Assembly: GCF_023716665.1 (NCBI RefSeq)
Contig: NZ_CP071859.1
Span: forward strand, 2,170,001 to 2,234,000
Length of the DNA stretch: 64,000 nucleotides
Direction: 5' to 3'
Source: Vibrio sp. SCSIO 43135
GTDB taxonomy: Bacteria > Pseudomonadota > Gammaproteobacteria > Enterobacterales > Vibrionaceae
Shown here piece by piece: positions 7,473 to 63,384 of this stretch (positions are counted from its first letter, which is position 1; the number at the start of each line of letters is the position of its first letter). Both the position numbers and the translations under genes were made by a program. The notes below the pieces were generated by a model. The model searched no databases. It had not been told where the DNA came from and saw only the letters and a list, made by a program, of their open reading frames with translations.

Positions 7473-8523
<1,051 letters not shown>

Positions 8524-8531
<8 letters not shown>

Positions 8532-9300
8532 CGATACTCAACCTCTCCAAGAAGAGTAACAACTGTTTGTATGCAAAGACCCCCCGACTCCCCGCAGCAA
8601 AGTGCGACACTGGGAGGTGCTTTAAACTTGCGTCTCTAAATTTGGTGTCAATTGGTACAGCCGAACTCCAAACTTGGTTTGGATAATCTTTTTTAAGCTG
8701 ATTCAAGGTTTGCAAGGAAGCATTAGTTCGCTTGTCGTACATTGTTGGAACGATCGTGACTTTAAACGCACGGTTGCGAGACTTCTGCATAATAGCCAAA
8801 GTCCGAACCATTCGCTCCAAGCCTTTCATCGCCAAGAACTCAGTTTGTACTGGGATCAATATACGGTCGCTTGCCGCTAGTGCGTTTACCATCATCACAC
8901 CAAGTATTGGAGGACAATCAATCAACACATAATCATAGCGTTCTTTTAGTGCGGACAACGCACGCTTTAGAATCAGCCCCATCCCACTGCGATTGCCCAT
9001 GACTCTGTCTAATGTCGCAAGAGACATGTGCGCCGGAACTATGTCAATGCCTTCAATTTCTGTTTTTAAGATGAGAGGCGACACAGTTTGCGGGGTGTAT
9101 TCTTTTAGCTGGAACAGGTCGAACAAACTCGCTGGTACATTATCAGAATCGTAGCCGAGGTAAGTGGTCAAGGAAGCATGCGGGTCAGTATCCACTAACA
9201 ACACCCGTTTCCCTTGCTTGCTAAGCAAACCCGCTAAGGTAACAGTCGTAGTCGTCTTGCCAACTCCTCCTTTCTGGTTTGCTACACTCCAAACAATCAT
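8524..9300 (-). CDS. parC: ParC, ParA/MinD-like ATPase for polar chemotaxis arrays
   Basis: A ParA-family ATPase of 258 residues that recruits ParP and chemotaxis arrays to the cell pole in vibrios and is itself anchored through HubP. The deviant Walker A is NQKGGVGKTTTTVTLAG near residue 8, with VLLVDTDPH and VLIDCPPILGV as the other nucleotide motifs. I place the start at MIVWSVANQ (9300): an upstream in-frame start at 9330 would overlap cheB, whereas 9300 follows AGAGGTAAGG and lies 10 bases past the cheB stop. Genetic context (cheB, parP, cheW) separates it from chromosome-partitioning ParA. Confidence 0.93.
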
Positions 9301-9310
9301 GCCCTTACCT

Positions 9311-10429
9311 CTATGCCATTCCGACTTCAACTAGCATACGCTCAGCAATTCGGTCGAGTGGCAAGTCTTCTGTGGACAACCCCGCTTTCGCGACTGCTTG
9401 TGGCATTCCGTACACAACACAACTGTCTTCATCTTGCGCCCAAATCGTCGCACCTGCAGTTTTCAACATACGAGCACCTTCACGACCATCTGCCCCCATA
9501 CCGGTAAGTACCATCGAAAGTACCTTATCGGCATATATTTTTGCAGCAGAACCAAAAGTGACGTCAACACATGGTTTATAGTTCATGCGTTCACCGCCAT
9601 CAATGACTCGCAGCTTCGCTGATCCAGGACGTCCATCAACCATCATTTGCTTACCACCTGGCGCTAAATAAGCGACACCAGGTTTCAAAATATCACCGTC
9701 TTGTGCTTCTTTAACTTGAATCCGACAAAGCGAATTCAAGCGACTCGCAAACGCTGCTGTAAATGTCGCAGGCATGTGCTGGATCAACACAATCGGATGT
9801 GGGTAATTCGCTGGAAGCTTAGTTAGAATTTTTTGCAGTGCAACAGGCCCACCAGTAGAAGTACCTATTGCCGTCAATTGGTATTTTTTACCTGTTGCCT
9901 TGAAACGCGTTGCAGCTGGAGCACTTGCCGTGGTTTTTGCAGCCGGCTTAGCACCTAGTGGAGCTCGCGTTGAGGTAGCTGGCTTAGCCGCTGGTGTAGG
10001 ACGTGGTGTAACAGGTCTTCGCATCATTCCGCGACGCGAGGCGATTTGAATCACACGTTGCTGTAAAAGGCTCACTGCTTCATCACGGTTACGCGCGATA
10101 TCTTCAAACTTTTTCGGTAAGAAATCCAAAGCCCCTGCATCAAGCGCATCTAATGTCGCTTTAGCACCATCGTGTGTCAGGGACGAAAACATCAAAATCG
10201 GAGTTGGAGACGCTGCCATTATCTCTCTGACAGCGGTGATTCCATCCATAACTGGCATTTCGATGTCCATCGTAATGACATCAGGCTTCAAGCGCTTGGC
10301 TTTTTCAACCGCTTCCTTACCATTTACTGCAACATCAATGACTTCTAAACGCGATTCTGAGTTGATGATCTCACTCACCCGACGACGGAAGAAACTTGAA
10401 TCATCAACAACTAATACTTTAATCGCCAT
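9311..10429 (-). CDS. cheB: CheB, protein-glutamate methylesterase
   Basis: The adaptation enzyme that removes methyl groups from receptors. It has a receiver domain (residues 1-120, phospho-acceptor in [13 protein letters not shown]), a Pro/Ala linker (about residues 135-175), and a catalytic methylesterase domain with the serine in [11 protein letters not shown], the histidine in IQHMPATF and the aspartate in LTGMGADG. The start at [10 protein letters not shown] (10429) is preceded by AAAGGGAAAAT; an upstream in-frame start at 10504 would overlap cheA. The 372-residue length is normal. Confidence 0.96.
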
Positions 10430-10457: not shown

Positions 10458-12683
10458 TTAGATTCGCGATGCCGCAGCGTACTGCTTAAGCAAATCTGGT
10501 ACATCCAAAATCAGCGCGATGTGGCCGTCACTTGTAATTGTCGCACCCGCCATGCCAGGCGTACCTTGTAACAAGTTATCTAATGGTTTGATTACCACCT
10601 CTTCTTGGCCGATCAATGTGTCAACAACAAAGCCTACACGTTGACTACCAATTTGAACGATAACGACATGCCCATGCCCTTTACGCAGTTCAACTTGACC
10701 AGCTTGAGGGGCGAGCCAGTTTTGCAAGTAGAATAGCGGAATGGATTTCTCGCGAACAATAATAGTCAATTGACCATCAACAACGTTCGTACGACTTAAG
10801 TCAAGGTGGAAAATCTCATTCACACTTGCAAGAGGAAGAGCAAATGGGTGGCCTGCAACACCAACCATTAGTGTTGGTAAGATTGCTAAAGTAAGAGGCA
10901 CTTTGATGGTGATCTTAGTGCCTTTACCCATTTCAGAGTCAATATCAATCGAACCATTTAGTGTATTGATCGCTGTTTTCACAACGTCCATACCTACACC
11001 ACGGCCCGAAATATCAGAAATCTGCTCTTTACTTGAGAAACCAGGCATGAAGATCAAATTGAAACATTCTTTATCAGAAAGTCGCGAAGCCGCATCTTCA
11101 TCCATCACTCCGCGCTTCACCGCGATACCACGCAATTTATCCGGATCCATACCGCCGCCATCATCGACGATAGCCAGTTCGATATGATCACCCTCTTGCG
11201 AAGCAGACAGGATTACCTTACCGGTGCGAGCCTTACCAGCTGCAACACGGTCTTCAGGCATCTCGATACCATGGTCAACAGAGTTTCGCACCAAGTGAAT
11301 CAATGGATCCGCTAGAGCTTCAACTAAGTTTTTATCTAAGTCGGTATCTTCACCACGCATTTCCAGTGAGATATCTTTATTCAAACTACGAGCAAGGTCG
11401 CGTACAACTCGAGGGAAGCGGCCAAACACTTTCTTAATTGGCTGCATTCTGGTTTTCATCACCGCACCCTGCAGGTCAGCGGTGACAACATCTAGATTCG
11501 AAACCGCTTTAGACATTTCTTCGTCGTTGCTGTTTAAACCAAGACTCAATAAACGGTTACGAACCAATACAAGCTCACCGACCATATTCATAATGGTATC
11601 AAGTGTTGAAGTATCGACACGGACGGTCGCATCAGCTTGTGGCTTCTTAGTTTGTGTCGCTGGTGTCGCGGCTTCTTTTTTCGCTGGTGGCTTACTCTCT
11701 GCTTTAGGTGCTGGTTTAGGAGCCGCAGGCTTAGGAGCAGAAGCAACCGGTGTGGGAGCAGCCACAGGTGGTGGCGCAGCATTAGCCGAAACAGGTTTCG
11801 TTGCAGCATCCAGTTCTTCTGGTGAAGGGCCTTTCCCTGAACCGTGGAGTTCATCGAGTAGTTTCTCGAACTCCGCGTCAGTCATAAGATCATCACCACC
11901 TGCAGCAGGTGATGCTGCAACAGGAGGAGGTGTTGGTGCTGCTGGAGGTGGCATCGTTGATGTTTCAGCGCCAGGTGCTTTACCAGAACCATGAAGCTCA
12001 TCTAACAATTTTTCAAATTCATCGTCAGTGATGTCACCACTTAAATCCGCTGCAGGTGCAGCAGGCTCTGGAGCTGGTGGTGGAGTAGCCGCGGCGCTAG
12101 ATTGTCCAGGAGCACTACCCTGTCCATGTAACTCGTCTAGAAGCTTCTCAAATTCATCTTGAGTAATATCATCCACGGACCCCGCGTTCACCTGTGTTTC
12201 CACGGGTGCTTCTTCTACAACAGGCTCAGCTTCAACAACTGGCTCTGGGGTAGGTACTTCAGCTACAGGTTCAGGGGCGGCTTCATCTTCTGATTCTGGT
12301 TTACACAAACGATGAAGTTCATCAAGTAAGTCTTGATCCGCTGGTGTCATTTCTTCGCGTTCTTGTACTGCTTGGAACTGTTCATTGACAGTATCTAAAG
12401 CACGTAACATGGTATCCATTAAACCAGCCGTCACAGAACGCTGGCCATTTCTTAAGATATCAAACACATTCTCGGCACCATGACAGGTATCGACAAGTTC
12501 TGAAAGTGACAGGAAGCCCGCACCACCTTTAACGGTATGGAAGCCGCGGAAAATGGCATTGAGAAGGTCTCGGTCTTCTGGGTTGTTTTCAAGTTCAACT
12601 AACTGCTCAGAAAGAAGCTCAAGTATTTCACCTGCTTCAACTAAAAAGTCCTGAAGAATTTCTTCGTCTAATTCGTAGCTCAT
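10458..12683 (-). CDS. cheA: CheA, chemotaxis histidine kinase
   Basis: A 741-residue kinase phosphorylating CheY and CheB. P1 carries the phospho-His in [11 protein letters not shown] (about residue 49). A long Pro/Ala/Glu linker (about 130-340) holds three repeats of [12 protein letters not shown] (DNA 11838-12175) where a folded P2 domain would be. Dimerisation P3 starts near [19 protein letters not shown]. The P4 ATPase has [12 protein letters not shown] (N box), DDGGGMD and GRGVGMDVV (G boxes). P5 is CheW-like. In vibrios the linker also contains the LID region that binds ParP. The three repeats resemble CheY-docking peptides; see findings. Confidence 0.97.
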
Positions 12684-12692
12684 ACGTTACCC

Positions 12693-13412
12693 CTAAAACC
12701 CAAGACTCGAGAGTAGATCGTCTACTTCATCTTGAGATGAAACTGCGTCGGTTCGCTCGTGAGGGTTCAAAATTGGACCTTCAGGATCGACTGATGCTTT
12801 TTTCTTGTTATCGGATGCTTCTTCGGTTTGGTTAGTACCGAAAACGGTTAGGATTTCAACCAAACGACCTTCAACTTCATTCACTAAGGTGATGACACGG
12901 CGAATAATTTGACCTGTTAGGTCTTGGAAGTCTTGCGCCATCAATATCTCAGTAAGTTGCCCGCGCAACTCTGAACTGTCGCCTTCAACTTGTGATAGAA
13001 GCTCATCAATGCGATGGCAAAGCGCTTTAAACTCAGCTAATTCAATTCTGCCATGCATCAGTTCATTCCACTGTGGACGAACTTTTAACAACCCTTCATG
13101 TAGATCGTCGGCAATTGGCATACAGCGATCCACTGCGTCCATCGTTTTGTTTGCAGCAACTTCTGTTTTTTCGATCACGTATTGAAGTCGATCCCTCGCA
13201 TCGGGGATTTCGTCTTTTGCAATCTCATTCATACGCTCATCGAGATTAAAATTCTTGAGCGAATCATGTAAGTCGCGGGTAAGAGTACCTATTTCTTGAA
13301 GCATGGCGTTTTCACCACCCTCGTAGATATTCTTAACTAGCAGGTCGGCTTCTTGCTGCTGCTCTTGTTCGAGCAATTCGACAAGTTGTTTTGCCTGGTC
13401 TAATGAAATCAT
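12693..13412 (-). CDS. cheZ: CheZ, CheY-P phosphatase
   Basis: A 239-residue helical protein that dephosphorylates CheY-P. The catalytic segment MAQDFQDLTGQIIRRV (Gln near residue 172) is intact and the long helical hairpin precedes it. The last residues (SSQDEVDDLLSSLGF) are the CheY-binding tail, nearly as in E. coli. It sits between cheA (9 bases away) and cheY in the operon. Confidence 0.97.
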   Translation of the reverse strand: MISLDQAKQLVELLEQEQQQEADLLVKNIYEGGENAMLQEIGTLTRDLHDSLKNFNLDERMNEIAKDEIPDARDRLQYVIEKTEVAANKTMDAVDRCMPIADDLHEGLLKVRPQWNELMHGRIELAEFKALCHRIDELLSQVEGDSSELRGQLTEILMAQDFQDLTGQIIRRVITLVNEVEGRLVEILTVFGTNQTEEASDNKKKASVDPEGPILNPHERTDAVSSQDEVDDLLSSLGF

Positions 13413-13459: not shown

Positions 13460-13840
13460 TTATAAGCGCTCAAAAATTTTGTCTAGTTTTTCTTTAAGAG
13501 TAGCTGCGGTAAACGGTTTAACAATGTAGCCATTTACACCAGCTTGAGCAGCTTCAATGATTTGTTCGCGTTTAGCTTCTGCTGTAATCATCAGTACAGG
13601 CAGGTGCTTAAGCTCATCATCAGCACGAATGTTCTTCAGCAAATCGATTCCTTGCATCCCTGGCATGTTCCAGTCAGTCACGACAAAATCGAAATCACCT
13701 TTCTTCAACATAGGCAATGCAGTCAGGCCGTCATCCGCTTCTTGGGTATTATTGAAGCCCAAATCGCGAAGTAGATTTTTAACGATACGGCGCATTGTTG
13801 AAAAATCGTCAACAATAAGAATTTTCATATTTTTATTCAA
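13460..13840 (-). CDS. cheY: CheY, chemotaxis response regulator
   Basis: A single receiver domain; phospho-CheY binds FliM to switch flagellar rotation. The acidic pocket (VDD), phospho-Asp ([14 protein letters not shown]), Thr (MITAEA) and Lys (VKPF) are present, and the sequence is the main CheY (CheY3-type) of vibrios. Start choice: the only good ribosome-binding site, GGAGG at 13846-13850, lies five bases before a TTG at 13840 ([12 protein letters not shown]). The first ATG is at 13828, 17 bases from it, and a GTG at 13852 overlaps the site itself. About 126 residues. Confidence 0.95.
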
Positions 13841-13873
13841 AATTGCCTCCACTGAGTTTGATATCAGTGATTG

Positions 13874-41900: not shown

Positions 41901-46919
<5,019 letters not shown>

Positions 46920-62328: not shown

Positions 62329-63384
62329 TTAATATTCTTCTTCATCATCGCCAGTCTCTTCTTCGAATTCAGACATGATGTCTTTTCCGAAGAATGCGAG
62401 GTCCGTTTTAACGACATCTGGGCGTTTAATTTTCTCGGATACTTGCACCGCCATGTTCTCGCCTGCTCGTCCCATCTTCACACGGAATGTCGGCAATTCT
62501 TCAACAAACATGGTGGCATGTTCAGGCATAGTGATTGGGATAATATCGCCAGCTTGAAGCTCCATTAGGTCGCGCAGCGAAATGTCTTGCTCGAGCAGAT
62601 TAACTCGGAAATTCACCGGCACGTCCATAATTTCTTCACGCAGCGCAGAACTCCAACGGATATCGGTTTCCATCTTGTCCGATTGGACACCTGCATCGAG
62701 CAGTTCACGAATCGGCTCAACCATGGAGTACGGCATAACGACATGGAAATCCCCGCCGCCACCATCGACTTCAATGTGGAAAGAGCTGACTACAATCACT
62801 TCCGTCGGGCTGACGATATTCGCCATACTTGGGTTCACTTCAGAATCAAGATATTCGAACTCGACACCCATCACCGGCGACCAAGCCTCTTTGTAATCTT
62901 CAAACACTATTTTTAATAGTAGTTGAACAATTCGTCTTTCCGTTGGAGTGAACTCGCGACCTTCAATACGGGCATGGAATCGACCATCACCGCCAAAGAA
63001 ATTTTCGACCAGAATAAAGACCAAACGCGCTTCCATAGTCACCAAGGCCGTACCTTTTAACGGCCTAAAGCGCACCATGTTCAAACTGGTTGGAACATAA
63101 AGGGTGTTCTGATATTCGCCAAACTTCATCATTTGAACGCCGTTTATCGACACTTCAGCAGTTTTGCGAAGCATGTTAAACAGGCTGATGCGTAAATGTC
63201 GTGCAAAACGCTCGTTGATTAGCTCGAGCGTTGGCATTCGACCACGAACTATTCGGTCTTGTGAGGAGAAGTCAAAATTGACGGCGGCGCCACTTTCGTC
63301 TTCTATTTCCTCTTCGACCTCTTCGACATCATCTACCCCGTGGAGTAGCGCATCAATTTCGTCTTGGCTTAATAAATCGGTCAC
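62329..63384 (-). CDS. fliM: FliM, flagellar C-ring switch protein
   Basis: The CheY-P receptor of the motor switch. 351 residues; N-terminal CheY-docking peptide LLSQDEIDALLHGVDD, a linker, a CheC-like middle domain, and a C-terminal FliN-like SpoA domain (INFRVNLLEQDISLRDLMELQAGDII region). The peptide belongs to the same motif family that recurs in CheA and HubP in this window. Confidence 0.97.
   Translation of the reverse strand: MTDLLSQDEIDALLHGVDDVEEVEEEIEDESGAAVNFDFSSQDRIVRGRMPTLELINERFARHLRISLFNMLRKTAEVSINGVQMMKFGEYQNTLYVPTSLNMVRFRPLKGTALVTMEARLVFILVENFFGGDGRFHARIEGREFTPTERRIVQLLLKIVFEDYKEAWSPVMGVEFEYLDSEVNPSMANIVSPTEVIVVSSFHIEVDGGGGDFHVVMPYSMVEPIRELLDAGVQSDKMETDIRWSSALREEIMDVPVNFRVNLLEQDISLRDLMELQAGDIIPITMPEHATMFVEELPTFRVKMGRAGENMAVQVSEKIKRPDVVKTDLAFFGKDIMSEFEEETGDDEEEY

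Follow-up and report, generated by a model that had tools for sequence, protein, structure and literature searches.

The alpha4-beta5-alpha5 face of CheY is used by the N terminus of FliM, by the tail of CheZ, and by the folded P2 domain of Escherichia coli CheA. In FliM, it is the EIDALL peptide that CheY-P binds (PMC9126983), and the same N terminus is reported to interact with FlhG (PMC12826062). E. coli P2 is needed only for the speed of phosphotransfer, not for phosphotransfer itself, and nearly 52% of CheA proteins have no P2, models showing an extended unstructured region in its place (PMC10782961). Also described from this part of the kinase is the LID of Vibrio CheA, a ParP-AIF-binding part that lies between P2 and P3 and for which occurrence outside species with ParC/ParP is not reported (PMC7534058, PMC5706961).

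Results

Anatomy of the kinase and its linker

The window (the whole 64,000-nucleotide stretch of DNA that was analyzed) comes from a genome of two contigs and 4.98 Mb whose closest named loci are those of Vibrio. Its cheA gene (10458..12683, reverse strand) encodes 741 amino acids arranged as P1, a disordered linker with three motifs, P3, P4, and P5, with Pfam placing P1 at residues 8 to 100, P3 at 352 to 411, P4 at 459 to 598, and P5 at 605 to 734. The single P1 with P3-P4-P5, together with the gene order cheY-cheZ-cheA-cheB-parC-parP-cheW (cheW called by resemblance), which we take to be a mark of the F6 class, assigns this CheA to that class.

The motifs are near-identical acidic LL peptides of 14 residues with the consensus [ST]-x-[DE]-E-F-[ED]-x-L-L-D-x-L-H-G, and they occupy residues 174 to 187 (repeat 1; 12123..12164), 219 to 232 (repeat 2; 11988..12029), and 268 to 281 (repeat 3; 11841..11882), all on the reverse strand and each coinciding with a helix in the AlphaFold2 model (175 to 186, 220 to 230, and 269 to 280, respectively). 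The sequence-only reading had described three such peptides within 11838-12175; peptides and stretch are real, although the end at 12175 is out of frame, the in-frame interval being 11838-12179. Outside the motifs, the linker is 23% alanine and 22% proline. Between copies, 7 to 10 of the 14 codons show synonymous differences and 1 or 2 show nonsynonymous ones, which rules out recent duplication as the source of the repeats; this pattern, taken with the conservation of the motif described below, indicates that the repeats are old and have been kept by selection on the protein.

Used as a protein query against its own genome, the repeat stretch returned CheA twice and one other match at E 0.72; it missed FliM and CheZ, so this search is blind to single short peptides. 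No solved structure matched the repeat region beyond a single Ala/Pro-rich alignment at E 0.33.

Search for a folded P2 domain

The Pfam P2 model was found neither in the window CheA nor in any of 23 aligned CheA proteins, and the corresponding CheY-binding domain was recognized at 8e-17 in the E. coli K-12 CheA used as a control. A P2-like segment in the second CheA of the window's own genome also escapes Pfam, however, so a missing Pfam P2 model is weak on its own. The AlphaFold2 model, built from a 54-row CheA alignment, leaves residues 127 to 357 without a folded domain: its linker helices are limited to residues 175 to 186, 220 to 230, 269 to 280, and 288 to 295, of which the first three coincide with the motifs. 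Block-mean pLDDT exceeds 90 at residues 11 to 130, and pLDDT falls mostly below 50 over residues 131 to 357, the exceptions being the helices at the motifs, where block means reach as much as 79; with a mean pLDDT of 72 and a pTM of 0.39, domain placement in this model is not interpretable.

A profile of the linker from 54 CheA proteins aligned with E. coli P2 over 16 columns, at a probability of 0.8 percent. The segment of the second CheA, entered as a single sequence, aligned over 69 of 85 columns with 25 percent identity at a probability of 4.9 percent, and at that value we do not claim a proven P2 in that protein. The model and the linker profile together agree with the earlier statement that no folded P2 is obvious between P1 and P3, and nothing there in the window CheA qualifies as a folded CheY-binding domain related to E. 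coli P2.

Conservation of the motif among CheA proteins

Within the family, 95 of 101 genomes (own included) match CheA at 1e-60, and the best 30 family CheA loci (own included) have exactly three motifs in each. The motif recurs in all 80 named relatives, among them Vibrio, Photobacterium, Shewanella, and Pseudomonas, with between two and five copies each (two in 4 loci, three in 53, four in 22, and five in 1) by a simple pattern that also takes in degenerate first copies; when the final HG is demanded, the counts become three copies in 66 loci, two in 12, one in 1, and none in 1.

Across the class, 149 of 369 genomes match CheA at 1e-100, one of them the window's own, and our class sample consists of CheA loci from 117 of the other 148 (L039 to L155), picked without a fixed rule. 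Three second CheA loci serving as contrasts (L156 to L158) bring the set to 120 loci, from which 118 linkers were parsed and 107 had the motif; without the contrasts, 107 of 115 parsed linkers contain at least one motif above 16.3 bits, a threshold that equals the maximum over 2,360 shuffled linkers. The profile used here was seeded from L162 to L241 only, without L009 to L038. In this sample the motif occurs once in 7 linkers, twice in 46, three times in 45, four times in 8, and seven times in 1, with motifs spaced 24 to 87 residues apart, mostly 30 to 55. The eight linkers without a match belong to a masked and frameshifted locus (L114), a core variant (L141), a divergent locus (L149), and five loci that are only distantly like that of the window (L151 to L155); two unparsed linkers, L145 and L146, contain SDAEFEALLDRLHG.

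Averaged over the motif columns, identity to the window residue reaches 0.79, close to the value for P1 (0.80) and P3 (0.81), against 0.26 in the linker spacers. Chance or low complexity as an origin of the motif is ruled out by the shuffled controls, by this conservation, and by the synonymous divergence of the copies. The survey of CheA families that had been proposed as a check came out positive in 80 of 80 named relatives and in 107 of 115 class linkers, and the combination of FliM/CheZ-like peptides with no visible P2 is strongly conserved across a large CheA group. Among the other proteins of the che loci, 2 of 1,401,802 non-CheA frame positions exceed 16.3 bits, namely a frameshifted piece of CheA (L113) and the N terminus of a ParP (L174).

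The largest arrays seen include those of L117, whose CheA linker has seven copies, and L125, with four or five. One contrast locus (L158, the second CheA of genome G448) has in its P1-P3 linker five copies of a different short repeat, each GFGFF or SFGFF plus two acidic residues, and its sequence suggests that other types of CheA may likewise use repeated short peptides.

Resemblance to the FliM and CheZ peptides

The window also encodes FliM (62329-63384, reverse strand; Pfam FliM, 2e-82), which begins MTDLLSQDEIDALLHG, and CheZ (12693-13412, reverse strand; Pfam CheZ, 1.1e-78). We built a profile from 155 distinct CheA repeats, excluding those of the window locus, and scored the window with it in all six reading frames. 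On its nine-residue core, the three CheA repeats rank first (27.0, 21.7, and 16.9 bits), followed by SQDEIDALL of FliM (8.7 bits) and then SQDEVDDLL of CheZ (5.7 bits), against a background over 60,014 window positions with a mean of -49 and a standard deviation of 9.6. The corresponding peptides are SQDEIDALLHGVDD at the FliM N terminus (63328..63369, reverse strand) and SQDEVDDLLSSLGF at the CheZ C terminus (12696..12737, reverse strand). With a second profile of twelve positions, FliM scores 0.4 bits and CheZ 6.7, both under the 16.3-bit threshold, so their kinship with the CheA motif lies in the core and they are not full members. To that extent, the likeness to the FliM N terminus and the CheZ tail on which the sequence-only reading was built holds, and the CheA repeats conform in sequence to the FliM/CheZ type of acidic amphipathic helix, with the core E-[IVF]-[DE]-x-L-L.

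In the named loci, position 5 of the CheA copies is F in 259 of 260, and LL is present in 248 of 260. FliM N termini were sought in 29 loci and could be read in 26, all of which have [DE]E[IV]DALL, and CheZ tails end in VDDLLSSLGF in all 80 named loci. The CheA of E. coli K-12 contains no motif (best score, 4.1 bits), though FliM and CheZ of E. coli have their peptides. We considered whether CheA and CheZ vary together at the LL position and dropped the idea: only G110 (CheA VL, CheZ IL; FliM N terminus ordinary) speaks in favor of it, two other loci have changed CheZ tails with unchanged CheA, and five have changed CheA with unchanged CheZ.

Next after CheZ in the core ranking is a FliM-like peptide, SQDDIEALL (4.6 bits; 45519-45560, reverse strand), in a 1672-aa acidic protein on which Pfam is silent and which is presumably HubP/FimV-like (41901-46919, reverse strand). 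This protein has a long series of near-identical acidic repeats. Among 10 same-genus loci (L261 to L270, own included), the strict form SQ-x-[DE]-[IL]-[DE] occurs in 5 and a looser form such as SADDIEALL in 4; the strict form was found in none of 20 loci outside the genus (L271 to L290). An interaction between HubP and FlhG has been reported (PMC8789113), so the peptide of the HubP-like protein could be a site for FlhG or for CheY.

ParP as a possible partner of the linker

Downstream of cheB in the window lie genes for a ParC-like ParA-family ATPase (8524..9330, reverse strand) and a ParP-like protein with a C-terminal CheW-like domain (7473..8531, reverse strand), both identified by neighborhood and domain. 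The main rival to CheY docking is that the repeats are the LID of CheA, binding the CheW-like AIF domain of ParP and tethering the kinase to polar arrays while CheY is phosphorylated undocked. The repeats do lie in the linker before P3, where the LID is located and where binding of ParP-AIF is reported (PMC7534058, PMC5706961); in many aligned CheA proteins GKGP comes after repeat 3; and motif and ParP occur together in 77 of the 80 named loci, the other three being a locus with only the first part of ParP on its contig (L174) and two with short stretches (L221 and L231).

In the class, a ParP profile was run at 1e-8 on 80 of 122 listed genomes and matched in 62, and the region after cheA was read in 17 of the 18 without a match. 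Six genomes of four families (G110, G122, G270, G156, G292, and G397) retain the motif or its core, although the genome-wide search at 1e-8 gave them no ParP match and no ParP was recognized within 10 kb after cheA. In five of them neither ParC nor ParP is recognized in those 10 kb, the exception being G156, in which ParC adjoins CheW with nothing between. The copies kept number two in G110, one each in G122, G270, and G156, three in G292, and two in G397, the last two genomes having the core only. Three more genomes in which ParC seemingly stands next to CheW without ParP (G256, with two CheA copies of the motif; G367, with one; and G211) were left out of the six, as were G414, G112, and G125, whose ParP status is ambiguous. 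The 1e-8 search does let divergent ParPs escape, since those of L248, L252, and L256 were found by reading between ParC and CheW, and it also missed ParP-like N termini visible by eye in L258 and L260; the six genomes may therefore hide one.

Motif and LID thus differ in distribution, the motif or core not being confined to genomes in which ParC and ParP are found, and its retention in these six genomes makes ParP binding unlikely as the only function. Nor does ParP binding explain the likeness to FliM and CheZ. Yet where ParP went undetected, the copies are few or the motif tail is changed, which leaves room for a role of ParP. On balance, we consider the identification of the repeats with the LID unlikely.

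In two genomes without a detected ParP (L096 and L141, from G292 and G397), the core reads ITDDEFEALL or nearly so, NQRD or QMRE replaces DELHG, and the motifs sit in longer repeats that start LPEGVDPD or similarly. The Pseudomonas loci in our set show ParP-like genes, contrary to the statement that P. aeruginosa has no ParC/ParP-related genes (PMC12410967). ParP proteins themselves have at their start an acidic peptide, [AV][LMI]x[DE]Y[FL]xxLL (8454-8495, reverse strand, in the window), which in the Salinivibrio locus L174 reaches 20.5 bits with the CheA motif profile; binding of ParC has been reported for an N-terminal part of ParP (PMC5706961).

Other candidate partners

The repeats might instead bind a MinD/ParA-type ATPase, either FlhG or ParC, as the FliM N terminus, a reported FlhG partner, does (PMC12826062), and in this way contribute to polar placement of the array. 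FlhG-like matches in each of the same 80 class genomes, with MinD-like relatives left undistinguished, and the related acidic LL peptide of the ParP N terminus, above threshold in L174, would agree with this, but no ParC is recognized within 10 kb after cheA in G110, G122, G270, G292, and G397, and G134 keeps three copies of the motif with a best FlhG-like match that is partial (residues 47 to 247 of 320, 44 percent). The FliM peptide, moreover, is retained in E. coli, which to our knowledge is without FlhG. We give this explanation little credence.

The same G134 (L048), a single contig, retains cheY, cheZ, and ParP beside the three copies; searches of this genome for FliM (sought in 30 genomes in all), FlhA, and flagellin returned no match. 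The persistence of the repeats there together with CheY and CheZ speaks for CheY docking. Its cheB is split into two frames, and with cheB broken the loss of flagella there may be recent.

Similarly improbable, in our estimation, are a target for the repeats inside the kinase dimer or its array (P1, P4, P5, or CheW) and a role as assembly segments like SHOCT. A short amphipathic helix on a flexible tether would be able to act in this way, and 16 of 23 CheA proteins have a SHOCT match at E 0.01 or better (best, 5.8e-8), but the SHOCT score of the window CheA is 16.9 bits against a cutoff of 27, and the likeness to FliM and CheZ is left without an account. Homology of the window CheA to SHOCT or to GemA was rejected, both matches being below their cutoffs.

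The CheY of motif-bearing kinases

The candidate common partner, CheY, is encoded at 13460..13852 (reverse strand) and is identical to E. coli CheY at 83 of 127 aligned residues. Nine residues that we take to be the face by which E. coli CheY holds FliM and CheZ (K91, I95, A99, G105, Y106, F111, L116, K119, and K122) are present in 79 of 79 named CheY proteins. Around them, Q94, V103, and N104 are found in 79 of 79 (N, A, and S in E. coli), R92 in 61 of 79, and K117 in 73 of 79 (K and E in E. coli). In CheY proteins adapted to F7 kinases, residues 92, 94, and 103 are reported to have changed on the P2 side and residue 117 at the FliM helix (PMC7184735, where these changes are described without reference to the motif). 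The differences of the named CheY proteins at 92, 94, 103, and 117 would fit a docking mode that changed between kinases with the motif and kinases with P2.

Discussion

We think that the CheA repeats probably substitute for P2, docking CheY through repeated peptides of the CheZ/FliM type. The P1-P3 linker would be a disordered tether that holds several short acidic amphipathic helices, each of which would dock CheY at its alpha4-beta5-alpha5 face; docking would raise the local concentration of CheY beside phospho-P1, several copies would supply avidity, and the CheA peptide would pass CheY-P on to CheZ and FliM, themselves users of related peptides. CheY binding, the face used, avidity, and competition we infer from the anatomy, conservation, and distribution of the motif and from the likeness of its core. 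The anatomical part of the sequence-only reading (three peptides that resemble those of FliM and CheZ, and no visible P2) stands as observed, and the docking of CheY that it proposed appears to be the best explanation. That reading took into account neither the ParP-binding LID, which published work puts in this linker (PMC7534058), nor the interaction of FlhG with the same end of FliM (PMC12826062).

Outside support for recruitment of CheY by such a kinase comes from P. aeruginosa, in which CheY-eYFP colocalizes with CheA-CFP (PMC12410967); the Pseudomonas CheA loci examined here have three or four motifs, and the P. aeruginosa CheA lies outside these loci. Counting against docking, as judged from sequence, are the FliM and CheZ scores below the CheA motif threshold and the F of CheA versus I or V at position 5. 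Since E. coli P2 is not essential for phosphotransfer (PMC10782961), a CheA without docking is also possible.

A more general proposition, on which we are evenly balanced, is that in a large set of gammaproteobacterial kinases, those of the F6 type, tandem CheZ/FliM-type motifs replace the folded P2, that kinase, phosphatase, and motor would recognize a single face of CheY by a shared peptide code, that copy number, from one to seven in our sample, would set avidity, and that F at position 5 would mark the kinase version. In the literature searched, which covers few subscription papers, neither the motif strings (DEFEALLD among them) nor a description of repeated CheY-docking peptides in CheA was found. 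If docking is true, the repeats explain how F6 kinases without P2 recruit CheY, they offer a model of multivalent competition among kinase, phosphatase, and motor, and the avidity of the kinase becomes testable by adding or removing 14-residue units.

Set beside the known systems, the repeats share with the P2/CheY-binding domain their position between P1 and P3 and, putatively, the role of docking CheY; P2 is a folded domain, whereas the window CheA has in its place a low-confidence linker with isolated helices. With the LID, as compared by its published description, they share the linker and the neighborhood (ParC-like and ParP-like genes after cheB), but the LID is reported only with ParC/ParP, whereas the motif or its core occurs also in the six genomes without detected ParP. 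The CheZ C-terminal peptide has the core and the LL-x-x-L spacing in common with CheA (LLDELHG versus LLSSLGF), but it is present once, at the extreme C terminus, and its position 5 is V throughout the 80 named loci. The EIDALL peptide of FliM, the site of CheY-P at the motor, has the same acidic helix core, S/T-x-D-E-[I/F]-[D/E]-x-L-L; FliM carries it once, near the N terminus, with I or V at position 5 (26 of 26 read), whereas CheA of the named relatives carries two to five copies with F at that position and usually DxLHG after LL.
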